From contig JAOAKA010000004.1 in assembly GCA_026413885.1 (NCBI GenBank), forward strand, positions 21,415 to 85,414: a stretch of DNA of 64,000 nt. Reading direction: 5' to 3'. Below, piece after piece: positions 24,110 to 28,449 of this stretch (positions within the stretch are counted from its first letter, which is position 1; the number at the start of each line of letters is the position of its first letter). The notes below the pieces were generated by a model. It was not told the DNA's origin. It ran no database searches and was given only the letters and a program-made list of their open reading frames with translations. Origin of the DNA: Sulfolobales archaeon (GTDB lineage Archaea; Thermoproteota; Thermoprotei_A; Sulfolobales; NBVN01). Made by a program: the position numbers and the translations under genes.

Positions 24110-27088
24110 CTAGCCACTAAAGTGAGTTCTCTTTACTCCTATTCTTACTGTGAAGCCCTCTATATCCCAAGTCTTCACGTAGAAGCTCTCTCCAGGGCTC
24201 TCCTGAAGTAGATTAGATGCTCTTACTTCTCTTGATATATACTCTCTGAAGGTCCGCAGAGATGTAGCTATATCTTCAGAGTCTGTCTCAACTACAACCT
24301 CTATAAACTCTGCTACATCTAGATTCATCTCCTTCCTCATGACCTGTATTCTGCGTATGAGTTCTCTAGCTAGAGCTTCAGCATAGAGCTCCCTATCGAC
24401 AGTCTTCTGCAGACAGACAGTAATTTCTCCTTCTTGTATGTATTCGTAGTCTCCTCCGAGACATGTGGATATAGATGTCGATAGCTCGACATTCTTAACG
24501 TTAGATAGTCTAGATACGACACTTCTGAGGTGCTCTAATCTCTCTAATACGCCTCTCTCAGCTACTACAACAACTTCGCGAAGAGGATACCTTATCTTTA
24601 TACCTAATCTATTTCTTAGAGATGCCAGTAGTTCAACAACTTTTAGAGCTGTTCTAAAGCTCTCCTCTAGCTGCGGCTCCACTCTACCTCCATCGACCTC
24701 ATCTAGCTTAGATAGGTGAACACTCTCTAGTTCATCTGGTTCGAAGTACTTTATGAAGTGAATCCAGAGTGCCTCCGATAAGTGAGGTACCGCTGGTGAT
24801 AGTAGCTTGAGTAGCTGCTTGAGGGTGTAGTAGAGTGTGGAGTAAACAACGAATCTATCGTCACTCTCTTCACTCCAGACTCTCGGTCTCACCAGCTTTA
24901 GGTAGGTCCTACTTAAGTCGTTGACTGCGAAGTCTATTAGTAGCTGCACTGCTTTATGTATCTCATACCTAGTTAAATGCTCAATGAACTCCTTTACCAC
25001 AGTGTTGACTCTCGAGAGAATCCATCTATCTTCAATAGAGAGTCTGCTCGAATATTCCTCGAGTCTATGCACTCTCGGGCTGAATCTATCTAAATCCATG
25101 TACATAGCTGCGAATCTAAAGACATTCCACACTATGTTCAATATGCTAGACGAAGTCTTTCTAACTTCCTCCGGGTCGAACATGAAGGAGTCTCCCGGCG
25201 GGTATCTATACAGCAGGTAGAGTCTCAATGGGTCTACTCCGAATTTCCTTAACGCTTCTTCAGCATATACAACATTTCCTAGGTGTTTAGACATCTTTCT
25301 ACCGTATTTATCTAGTACATGTCCCTGAATGAGTATCTGCCTGTAGGGAGCTAGCTCTCTATCGATAACTGATGTAGCTATTAGTGAGTAGAACCACCCT
25401 CTGGTTTGGTCTATTGCTTCAGTTATGAAGGTGTAGGGGTATAGCTTATTAAATAGTTCTCTGTTTCTCAATCCATCTACAGAAGCTAACCAAGCAACAC
25501 CACTATCTATCCAGACGTCAACTACGAAGGGTTCTCTAACCCACTTAGAGCAGTCGGGAGATCTGAGCTCAACAGCATCTATCCAGGGTCTGTGAGTGAG
25601 TTTTTCGTCATCTACATCCGGCATACCTGAAGCATAACTCTTTAACTCATCTACGCTACCAATCACCAGTATCTTACTGGGGTTTTCTACACATCTCCAT
25701 ATGGGTAGCGGTGTACCCCATATTCTCGACCTAGATATAGTCCAGTCTTTAACGTTCGCAAGCCACGATTCAAACCTACTCCTATGTATCTTCGGGAATA
25801 TCTCGACAGAATTTAGAGCTTCAAGTAGTTTATCTCTTAGTTTACTCATAGCTATAAACCACTGTCTATCTGCTCTATAGATCAGTGGTGTTCCACACCT
25901 CCAGCAGTGGGGATATCTATGTACAATACGCCCGGATCTAACTAGGAGTTTCTTCTCGTTTAAGACTCTAACAACTAGTTCAGATGCTTCACTAATAGAT
26001 AGACCTCTAAATACCCCGGCTTGTTCGTCGAACACTCCATCGATATCTACAGTACTAGTTATCGGTAGTCCATACTGAACACCGAGTTCGAAGTCTTCCG
26101 GTCCGTGACCTGGAGCTATGTGAACTAAGCCGGTCCCCTCCTCAAGACTTACGAAGCCGGTGTCTAGAACTACGTGGCTATCTCTGTGGTCTCTATGTAT
26201 TGGTACTTCACTAAGTAGGGGGTGCTCGTATCTCAAGCCTCTTAGCTCAGACCCTCTCACTAAGTTGATACATCTTAAATTAGCTATACCTAACTCCGCA
26301 CTTACTCTCTCCACTAGCTGCCTAGCTATATACCACTTCTCACCGCCTAAGTCAGCTAGACAGTATTCCGCATCTGGATGTACAGCTACTGCTTCATTAT
26401 CTATTAATGTCCAAGGTGTTGTTGTCCAGACCAGCAGGTAGTCTCTATCTCCTCCCTCAATCTTCAGTTTCACGTAGATCGATGGAGACTCTCTTTCTTC
26501 GTAACCCATATCGACTTCAGCATCACTTAGAGCTGTCTCACATCTGGGGCAGAATGGTAGTACTCTATAGCCTTCGTAGAGTAACCCCTTCTCCCAAGCC
26601 TTCTTCACTAAGTACCAGACGTACTCTAAATACCTGCTTCTCCGAGTTTCATAAGCATTTTCGAGGTCTAGCCACAGACCTAGAGCTTCTGTAGCGTAGA
26701 GCTTCCAGTAAGTGAGGTAGTAGTCAACTAACTTGTTGCACTCTTCAATAAATCTCTCGAACCCTACCTTCTCTGATATCTCTCTCTTAGTTCTAATACC
26801 GAGTTTCTTCTCAACTTCTACTTCAACCGGTAGCCCCTGCTCATCCCACCCTCCTTGAGCCCATACATCGTACCCCAGAATCCTGTGGTATCTCAGGGCA
26901 AAGTCTTTATATATCCTACCTCTTAGATGACCTACGTGTGGGTAGCCGTTAGCTGTTGGTGGACCTTCAAGAAAGCTGAAGAGTTTTCTACCAGATAGTG
27001 CTCGCCACTTCTGTGGAATATTTCTCTCTCTCCAATATGCTCTAACTTCTTCCTCAACTTTCTTTATACTCAGCGGAGGTAAATCAAT
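24110..27088 (-). CDS. ileS: isoleucyl-tRNA synthetase with a non-standard start codon
   Basis: The ORF track gives 832 residues from an internal GTG at 26608, but the same frame stays open upstream to a TAG near 27134 and encodes the essential N terminus, including class I motif PHVGH (about residues 50-54) and WDEQGLPVEVEVEKK. KMSKH is near residue 597; editing and anticodon domains follow, with a C-terminal archaeal extension. Between that stop and the internal GTG there is no ATG, GTG or TTG in frame. An ATT at 27088, nine bases after the predicted transcription start, is the best candidate (992 residues); a CTG at 27073 is another. The protein identity is certain; the start is not. Confidence 0.92.
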   Translation of the reverse strand: MDLPPLSIKKVEEEVRAYWRERNIPQKWRALSGRKLFSFLEGPPTANGYPHVGHLRGRIYKDFALRYHRILGYDVWAQGGWDEQGLPVEVEVEKKLGIRTKREISEKVGFERFIEECNKLVDYYLTYWKLYATEALGLWLDLENAYETRRSRYLEYVWYLVKKAWEKGLLYEGYRVLPFCPRCETALSDAEVDMGYEERESPSIYVKLKIEGGDRDYLLVWTTTPWTLIDNEAVAVHPDAEYCLADLGGEKWYIARQLVERVSAELGIANLRCINLVRGSELRGLRYEHPLLSEVPIHRDHRDSHVVLDTGFVSLEEGTGLVHIAPGHGPEDFELGVQYGLPITSTVDIDGVFDEQAGVFRGLSISEASELVVRVLNEKKLLVRSGRIVHRYPHCWRCGTPLIYRADRQWFIAMSKLRDKLLEALNSVEIFPKIHRSRFESWLANVKDWTISRSRIWGTPLPIWRCVENPSKILVIGSVDELKSYASGMPDVDDEKLTHRPWIDAVELRSPDCSKWVREPFVVDVWIDSGVAWLASVDGLRNRELFNKLYPYTFITEAIDQTRGWFYSLIATSVIDRELAPYRQILIQGHVLDKYGRKMSKHLGNVVYAEEALRKFGVDPLRLYLLYRYPPGDSFMFDPEEVRKTSSSILNIVWNVFRFAAMYMDLDRFSPRVHRLEEYSSRLSIEDRWILSRVNTVVKEFIEHLTRYEIHKAVQLLIDFAVNDLSRTYLKLVRPRVWSEESDDRFVVYSTLYYTLKQLLKLLSPAVPHLSEALWIHFIKYFEPDELESVHLSKLDEVDGGRVEPQLEESFRTALKVVELLASLRNRLGIKIRYPLREVVVVAERGVLERLEHLRSVVSRLSNVKNVELSTSISTCLGGDYEYIQEGEITVCLQKTVDRELYAEALARELIRRIQVMRKEMNLDVAEFIEVVVETDSEDIATSLRTFREYISREVRASNLLQESPGESFYVKTWDIEGFTVRIGVKRTHFSG

Positions 27089-27119
27089 AGTGGGTCCCGA
27101 AGATAATAGATAGCTACAC

Positions 27120-27129
27120 CTTATAAGCT
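27120..27129 (-). promoter_or_regulatory. promoter (TATA box) of ileS
   Basis: On the minus strand agcttataag. Transcription would start near 27097, leaving only about nine bases before the ATT proposed as ileS start. Confidence 0.55.
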
Positions 27130-27219
27130 ACTCAAAACGTATGTTAGGTGATTACACATAACCTCGCCGAAGGAGTTGAATATCGCACTCTTAAGATTGC
27201 TTAAACCTATTTAGCGAGA

Positions 27220-27230
27220 GAGTTTAAATC
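27220..27230 (+). promoter_or_regulatory. promoter (TATA box) of the glycosyltransferase gene
   Basis: gagtttaaatc-type box centred about 31 bases before the GTG at 27256, predicting a nearly leaderless transcript. It shares the intergenic space with the ileS promoter on the other strand. Confidence 0.5.
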
Positions 27231-27255
27231 GAATGCTCTAGAATATTCTGGTGCT

Positions 27256-28449
27256 GTGGATATGCTGGATTTAGTATCAGCTGTCTTCAGCTTAATTTCT
27301 ATATCTATATTGTCTGCCAACTCTGCAGTAGTGACTCTTGCGTATTTAAGTAGATCGCGTCCAGTAGAGGTGTATCCAGAGAATCTATATGAATACCCTG
27401 AAGTAACTATAGTTGTGCCGGCATATAGAGAAAGGTCCAGCATTCACCACGTACTTCAGTCGCTTAAGGAAGTGAGGTATCCGAGAGACAAGCTTAAAGT
27501 AGTTGTTGTAGGTGAGAGTGACGATATCGAGACATACCGTGAAATCTCGAAGTTCTGTAAAGCAGGCAACCAGCTTCTCAACTGCGGGGAGGTTGTCGGT
27601 ATCTACATAGAGAACTCTTCTGGAGTACGTGGTAAACCCGCTGCTCTGAACTACGCGTTGAGATACATTAATACAGATATATTAGCAGTATACGATGCTG
27701 AAGACACTATACACCCAGACCACGTGCTAACCGCAGTTAAGATATTGGAAGACAGTGATGTAGTAGCTGTTCAATTTATTAGAGAAGTTGCTAACACGTC
27801 TAGCAAGTTGAGTAAAGCTCAAATAGCGGATTTCTACTTCTTCTACGAAGTCTTCCAGCCGTATATAGCACATAAAACGGGGCTCGCAGAAGTCTGCGGG
27901 TCTGCGTTCTTTATCAAGGTTCCACATTTAGTGAGCATTGGTGGATTCAATATCTCATCACCGACTGAAGATCTAGATTTAACCTATAGGATAGGTGCCC
28001 GCAGGTGGAAAGTCGTACTTGCTTACCCTCCATCGACTACGAGACCTATCTCCCGGTTTTCCAGTCTCGTCAAGCAGAGAGCTAGGTGGATTAGAGGTGG
28101 TATACTATCTATTTCCGTTGGGTTGAGAGCGGTGCCTAGGTCTATCCCACTACTACTAATAACTGGGTTTACACCTATTGCTGCGATTACTTCAACTATT
28201 GCGGTAGCTGTAGGTTTTGCTGGATTGCTCCTGGGATTTGAAATGACGCTATTCAGGCGGGTTATTCTAGTTCTAGCTGCTGTCTGTGTGCTTGGCTCTA
28301 CACCAGTTGTACTCGCAAATCCTGGTGGAAGAAGTGCTTTAAAGTACTTGGCCGTTATGTCTGCTGTCTATTACTTAGCTATCTGGAGAGCTGTTTTCGA
28401 GCTTCTTACAGCACCTAGGAGTTGGACTAAGTCTGACTTCAAGGCTTGA
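27256..28449 (+). CDS. membrane glycosyltransferase, family GT2
   Basis: A 397-residue processive-type GT2 enzyme. N-terminal membrane helix (about 5-30), nucleotide-sugar domain with TIVVPAYRER, the D-x-D-like AVYDAEDTIHPDH, a conserved PTEDLDLTYR and the QRARWIRGG motif (Q-x-x-R-W) that marks cellulose/chitin/hyaluronan synthase-like enzymes, then two to three C-terminal membrane helices. It likely builds a surface polysaccharide or glycolipid. GTG start, with an ATG two codons later. Confidence 0.9.
   Translation: MDMLDLVSAVFSLISISILSANSAVVTLAYLSRSRPVEVYPENLYEYPEVTIVVPAYRERSSIHHVLQSLKEVRYPRDKLKVVVVGESDDIETYREISKFCKAGNQLLNCGEVVGIYIENSSGVRGKPAALNYALRYINTDILAVYDAEDTIHPDHVLTAVKILEDSDVVAVQFIREVANTSSKLSKAQIADFYFFYEVFQPYIAHKTGLAEVCGSAFFIKVPHLVSIGGFNISSPTEDLDLTYRIGARRWKVVLAYPPSTTRPISRFSSLVKQRARWIRGGILSISVGLRAVPRSIPLLLITGFTPIAAITSTIAVAVGFAGLLLGFEMTLFRRVILVLAAVCVLGSTPVVLANPGGRSALKYLAVMSAVYYLAIWRAVFELLTAPRSWTKSDFKA

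Follow-up and report, generated by a model that had tools for sequence, protein, structure and literature searches.

A probable AUU start codon for the isoleucyl-tRNA synthetase gene of a Sulfolobales genus

The window considered here, i.e., the whole stretch of 64,000 nucleotides that was analysed, comes from an incomplete draft genome of a Sulfolobales archaeon (23 contigs, 1.32 Mb) and carries on its minus strand ileS, the gene for isoleucyl-tRNA synthetase (IleRS). The ileS frame is open from 27127 to its stop at 24110, that is, over 1005 codons, behind an in-frame TAG (27130-27128). Its product is a complete class I isoleucyl-tRNA synthetase, with Pfam matches to tRNA-synt_1 (PF00133, E 4.5e-97) and Anticodon_1 (PF08264, 3.1e-32) and with the HIGH-type motif present as PHVGH. 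Only one ileS is seen in the 1.32 Mb genome, the next matches being approximately 29% identical paralogues such as ValRS/LeuRS. As the neighboring open frame is divergent (Table 1), ileS has its own promoter. Between the TAG and 26608 there is no in-frame ATG, GTG or TTG, with 26608 itself holding the first such codon, i.e., codon 174 of the open frame and 160 codons past an ATT at 27088. A sequence-only reading of this DNA had claimed that ileS possesses no canonical start, and re-reading of the frame confirms both that claim and its positions.

Table 1. Features at the 5' end of ileS and in its surroundings (window coordinates)
Feature	Position	Strand	Basis and remarks
ileS CDS, isoleucyl-tRNA synthetase	24110..27088	-	992 codons + stop; Pfam matches span the whole protein
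In-frame TAG, upstream limit of the ileS frame	27128..27130	-	sequence
ATT, proposed ileS start codon	27086..27088	-	invariant in 7/7 species; modal TATA and SD distances
TATA hexamer TTATAA	27121..27126	-	sequence; TTATAA/TTATTA 31-33 nt before ATT in 7/7 species
Shine-Dalgarno (SD)-like G-rich motif GGGA	27095..27098	-	6 nt before ATT; GGGG in five sister species, GGTG in other genera
CTG, other candidate start	27071..27073	-	invariant in 7/7 species
Out-of-frame mini-ORF TTG-ATT-TAC-CTC-CGC-TGA	27070..27087	-	opens with UUG, followed by an Ile codon; offset from ATT by one base in the downstream direction
Divergent neighboring open frame	27205..28449	+	starts between the two genes; resembles a glycosyltransferase, by eye only

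Genome-wide ORF statistics were taken from 1.04 Mb of this genome, which holds 845 ORFs that are 150 codons or longer. Of these, ileS displays the longest 5' stretch lacking a canonical start, i.e., 173 codons with a runner-up of 139, and by codon usage that stretch is coding. Such a length by itself is only mildly improbable, however, and the case presented here rests instead on conservation and on geometry.

Conservation was viewed first of all across a genus set consisting of the window species and six sister species (IleRS identity 72-82%), with public relatives drawn from MAGs of Sulfolobales, Desulfurococcales and other Thermoproteota. In the six sister species the 5' end of ileS reads GG[GA]-NC[TC]-[GA]CT-ATT-GAT-TT[AG]-CCT-CC[GA]-CTG, with ATT, GAT, CCT and CTG invariant across all seven species. 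No canonical start is common to the seven. Three sister species (L009, L010, L011) possess a TAG immediately preceding GGG-TCT-GCT-ATT, and the sole upstream in-frame GTG of the genus (L008) lies 30 nt before the ATT, within the promoter region. Changes found after the ATT are synonymous (TTA/TTG, CCG/CCA), whereas those found before it are non-synonymous (TCT/CCC, GCT/ACT). Over the six codons beginning with ATT, 16 of 18 nucleotides are identical, a degree of identity reached by 3 of 1003 six-codon windows, these included. By comparison, one codon is kept in all seven species at just 63 of the 513 invariant-residue columns of ileS (Met and Trp left out), including 1 of 34 for Pro and 2 of 68 for Leu, and the start region holds that Pro along with one of the Leu. 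Alignment of close relatives, which the sequence-only reading had proposed as a check, thus finds ATT rather than ATG conserved at 27088, in seven of seven species.

With regard to geometry, TATA-like hexamers in this genome are most frequent 28-34 nt ahead of first canonical starts, and the spacing from GGTG to those starts peaks at 5-8 nt. In every one of the seven species the ATT of ileS follows its TATA hexamer by 31-33 nt and GGGA/GGGG by 6 nt, that is, it lies at both distances jointly, a combination seen at 0-0.8% of large-offset positions and at 6.1% of first canonical starts. The out-of-frame UUG one base past the ATT likewise lies at both distances in all seven, but the GGA/GGG, TTA/TTG and CTG candidates lie at neither distance in any. 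An ATT start approximately nine bases after the predicted transcription start, as had been suggested from the letters alone, is supported by this placement and by its invariance; for the CTG at 27073, offered then as the other option, the geometry is unfavorable. Of all the arguments that favor AUU over CTG, this geometry is the strongest.

The spacing of TATA, SD and ATT at ileS is that of the short-leader layout most common in this genome, with the transcript's 5' end as predicted from consensus motifs, and it is not that of a leaderless mRNA, i.e., the TATA-ATT gap is 31-33 nt with an SD-like motif between. In this genus that motif is weak, being GGGA/GGGG rather than GGTG. The tail of 16S was not found in 1.04 of the 1.32 Mb of the MAG. 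In an RNAalifold analysis of the seven-sequence alignment, no pair at the ileS 5' end changed on both sides, and a hairpin hiding the SD (GGGG with CCTCC) was rejected for lack of this covariation.

Outside of the genus, sister genera along with Vulcanisaeta/Thermocladium-like genomes display GGTG-TCN-NNT-ATT-GAT at ileS, where the in-frame GTG, 9 nt upstream of the ATT in the sister genera, lies inside of the SD-like GGTG. Start and SD are thus indistinguishable in these genomes. Six sequences from two genera (L016, L042, L088, L059, L021, L069) have a further GGTGAT ahead of that GTG, which in those sequences may be the real ileS start; a proposal that ATT serves as start in all f1 genera has therefore been withdrawn. 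In some of these genomes outside of the window genus the GTG has been lost but the ATT kept, giving independent parallels, as seen in L211 (Vulcanisaeta-type, GTG to GGA), in L218 (TGA in frame) and in L018, which displays AGGTGAGGAAGC-ATT directly after an in-frame TGA. L223 too has lost the GTG, but an ATG follows two codons later. In L023 and L026 the codon at SD distance is ATC, and 18 nt upstream of it there is a TTG. A leaderless GTG as the general ileS start is rejected for the start-less lineages but possible in sister genera having an in-frame GTG.

More distantly, Ignisphaera-type and f3 genomes possess GGTG-N6-TTA-TCY with the GTG in frame, except that L132 lacks a canonical ileS start and L142 carries TTG in place of the TTA. 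Instead, GGTG-N7-TTA-T[CT]C is found in Pyrodictium-type genomes and two f10 genomes, 13 sequences in all, none of which has a canonical start in frame at the TTA or upstream of it; in a few, GTG or TTG is found 2-6 codons further on. In one Pyrodictium-type genome (G180, 2,023,836 bp) the GGTG-to-start spacing peaks at 7-8, matching the TTA of ileS. A start in Pyrodictium-type genomes at an out-of-frame ATG (ATG-NNY-ATT-ATY) followed by a +1 shift is weakened by that ATG having no SD, with the TTA found at the modal SD spacing. On an IleRS tree spanning Thermoproteota the start-less state requires seven label changes (bootstrap 7-8). Together the tree and the comparison of lineages imply a homologous start position that has been repeatedly occupied by non-canonical codons, and on these alignments the canonical start of ileS is missing time and again within Thermoproteota. 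A different arrangement is seen in five Thermoproteaceae (L225, L226, L228, L231, L232), where a mini-ORF, ATG-(NNG)-GGG-ATY-...-TGA, precedes ileS, its stop overlapping the ileS GTG/ATG start and with an Ile codon inside of it in five of five.

Nor is ileS the only gene of the genus with a non-canonical start, contrary to what might have been supposed, though it is the clearest case. A RIO kinase gene (G000 C16:204241-205068, minus strand; L243-L249) starts with ATA in five of the seven species, there overlapping the preceding gene's stop codon (this gene being aIF1A by eye), and with GTG in the other two. A DHH-family gene (G000 C16:4271-5284, plus strand; L260-L266) apparently starts with CTG in five of the seven species, and one other species has TTG at this position. 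Further coding ORFs with no canonical start are KaiC-like (G000 C19:54462-55850, minus strand; GGGGAGACT-ATT), radical SAM (G000 C2:17003-18022, minus strand; GGAGGTGTTGCTGA-ATA) and ketopantoate-reductase-like (G000 C21:8913-9824, plus strand). Given ileS along with these genes, the translation apparatus of the genus seems to accept AUU, AUA and CUG if well placed.

As the ATT is conserved, stands at modal TATA and SD distances and begins six codons that are conserved at the DNA level, ileS most likely starts there, and we hold AUU at 27088-27086 to be probably the working start. Absent canonical starts, a conserved ATT, start-like geometry and recurrence in other lineages are all matters of direct comparison among genomes. 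Use of AUU in the cell, Met as first residue and a weakness that serves control are what we infer. The gene's own TATA promoter would give rise to an mRNA with a leader of approximately 9-11 nt, its 5' end at, or just ahead of, the G-rich SD-like motif. The ribosomal P site would then be set on the AUU, with initiator Met-tRNA pairing at two of three positions, and the resulting IleRS would begin M-D-L-P-P-L-S-I-K-K... Given the position of the TATA box, an upstream exon or BHB intron would hardly fit and is unlikely.

The AUU overlaps an out-of-frame UUG, however, which is followed by AUU (Ile) and, after 5-8 codons, by a stop. Ribosomes might thus start at this UUG (27087-27085), itself a canonical start, and slip back one base onto the AUU when the A-site Ile codon is starved, with IleRS made by way of a -1 slip of the initiator tRNA that senses Ile-tRNA supply, a logic comparable to that of prfB. 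The UUG-AUU pair occupies an equally start-like position in seven of seven species and otherwise leads to a dead end. Among start-less relatives, L211, L218 and L223 too possess UUG followed by ATC, ATT or ATA, and in Ignisphaera/Pyrodictium-type genomes the overlapping frame reads AUU-AUC/AUU in every case of UUA but AUU-GUC in L142, which has the canonical UUG. The aRF1 gene of the same genomes displays a logic of product-dependent codons as well, with UAG. Against this, UUG-Ile arises automatically from ATTGAT unless the next base is G, i.e., the mini-ORF is implied by ATTGATT, and the overlap is absent from L018, L023 and L026. The GTG of sister genera would bypass the slip, and initiator -1 slippage is, to our knowledge, unprecedented. 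We view initiation at the UUG as unlikely.

A start at the CTG (27073-27071), giving MSIKKVEEE..., has in its favor a codon that is invariant in the seven species as well as the CUG start of the DHH gene in the same genus. That codon nevertheless is 46-48 nt from the TATA hexamer, with no SD, and the DLPP residues encoded upstream of it vary only synonymously, making CTG a very improbable start. Still less probable is a leaderless start at the GGA/GGG codon, which is where sister genera have their GTG and is roughly where the transcript is expected to begin, but which itself varies between GGA and GGG and is followed by codons that change non-synonymously (TCT/CCC, GCT/ACT). Lastly, a sequencing or assembly error hiding an ATG, as allowed for in the sequence-only reading and as possible in principle with a 23-contig draft, or instead a pseudogene, may be dismissed given an intact, single-copy gene of 992 codons and the same state in six further genomes of the genus and in complete Pyrodictium-type genomes.

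Returning to AUU as the start, it is plausible that this start may serve as a control point. The repeated loss of a normal ileS start in relatives points to a weak start being kept on purpose, possibly enabling ileS to sense what it encodes; expression would then be low and dependent on the stringency of start selection. The overlap of a UUG with a following Ile codon suggests, further, that Ile-tRNA supply could set the reading frame. That is, AUU/GAU in the ileS frame would compete with UUG/AUU, the latter opening the dead-end mini-ORF and needing Ile-tRNA in the A site. A shift between these two P-site codons would place GAU rather than an Ile codon in the A site, and a shortage of charged tRNA-Ile would thereby favor the ileS frame and with it the making of more IleRS. 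We propose such AUU/UUG competition, with low confidence, as the likeliest form that ileS control might take, and the control part of our interpretation is much weaker than is the claim of an AUU start, being improbable as it stands.

Non-canonical starts are of a known kind, with what is new here being a genus-wide AUU on an archaeal synthetase along with recurrent loss elsewhere; no earlier report of archaeal AUU starts or of ileS frameshifting was found in the openly accessible literature. The infC gene, encoding IF3, starts with AUU/AUC (PMC5472188). Both infC and ileS are essential to translation, and both combine an SD sequence with a near-cognate start that is conserved. In the case of ileS, all seven species lack a usable ATG, GTG or TTG at the conserved N terminus and all seven conserve a near-cognate codon at the predicted ribosome-binding position. 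Unlike ileS, infC is bacterial, and IF3 itself inspects start codons, which IleRS does not; archaea use aIF1/aIF1A in place of IF3. Streptomyces sigR starts with GTC and is repressed by IF3 (PMC5472188). It too has a conserved non-canonical start missed by annotation, one which has a control role, but sigR encodes a bacterial sigma factor, possesses a strong AGGAGGTG SD and was established by experiment, whereas the ileS case comes from sequence. Among closely related prokaryotes, one AUG to AUU and one GUG to AUU switch were seen for approximately 66,000 ancestral AUG and GUG starts (PMC5622118). AUU serves as a start there as well, but that of ileS is fixed across a genus and has parallels in other families.

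An AUU on an essential archaeal synthetase, if indeed used, together with UUA at the homologous position in Pyrodictium-type genomes, would mean that the ATG/GTG/TTG rule of most gene prediction fails systematically in an archaeal group. The ileS set could serve also as natural near-cognate starts for studying start-codon choice by archaeal initiation factors. Should the start be a control point, then it would represent a rare regulation of an archaeal aminoacyl-tRNA synthetase gene.

Comparable in logic to the proposed control is prfB, encoding RF2, with its autoregulatory +1 frameshift at CUU UGA (PMC5009743). In both cases a 5' codon would be decoded according to the gene's own product. The mechanism proposed for ileS differs in that it would act at initiation, with a -1 step, and on an Ile codon rather than a stop.

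A close resemblance to prfB (PMC5009743) is seen with aRF1, the class-1 release factor gene of these archaea (G000 C16:134220-135329, plus strand; L236-L242), whose conserved N terminus lacks a start codon in frame in seven of seven species. At the start of the mRNA in the genus there is instead a mini-ORF whose end reads AUU-UAG-C; in the +1 frame the same letters give UUU-AGC, from which aRF1 runs on. The arrangement has the look of an archaeal counterpart to the prfB frameshift, autoregulatory and +1, with UAG as the shift site; the consulted passages of two reviews (PMC5009743, PMC8211752) mention no such archaeal case. It supports the idea of unusual starts on decoding-factor genes in these archaea. 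The broadest form of that idea is that ileS possesses an Ile-tRNA-sensing start, i.e., two overlapping near-cognate P-site codons with low IleRS favoring the ileS frame, and that with aRF1, where UAG takes the place of Ile, this could represent a general archaeal self-control of decoding factors at their first codons, which we offer as a doubtful conjecture.

Across the class, 21 of 36 aRF1 loci (a wider set, L268-L296 included) are start-less with a mini-ORF of this kind; for two of the 36 (L277, L280) a script gave a later TAG and the AUU-UAG pattern was read by eye. The mini-ORF takes the form of GTG-NNN-NNY-ATT-TAG-C or instead of SD-ATG-TCT-ATT-TAG, leading into the +1 frame of aRF1 (TTT-AGY). 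In ten loci (L274-L276, L278, L279, L281, L282, L285, L288, L290) the AUG of the mini-ORF follows a GGTG at a distance of 7-9 nt, and the mini-ORF itself reads ATG-NNN-[ACG]TT-TAG.
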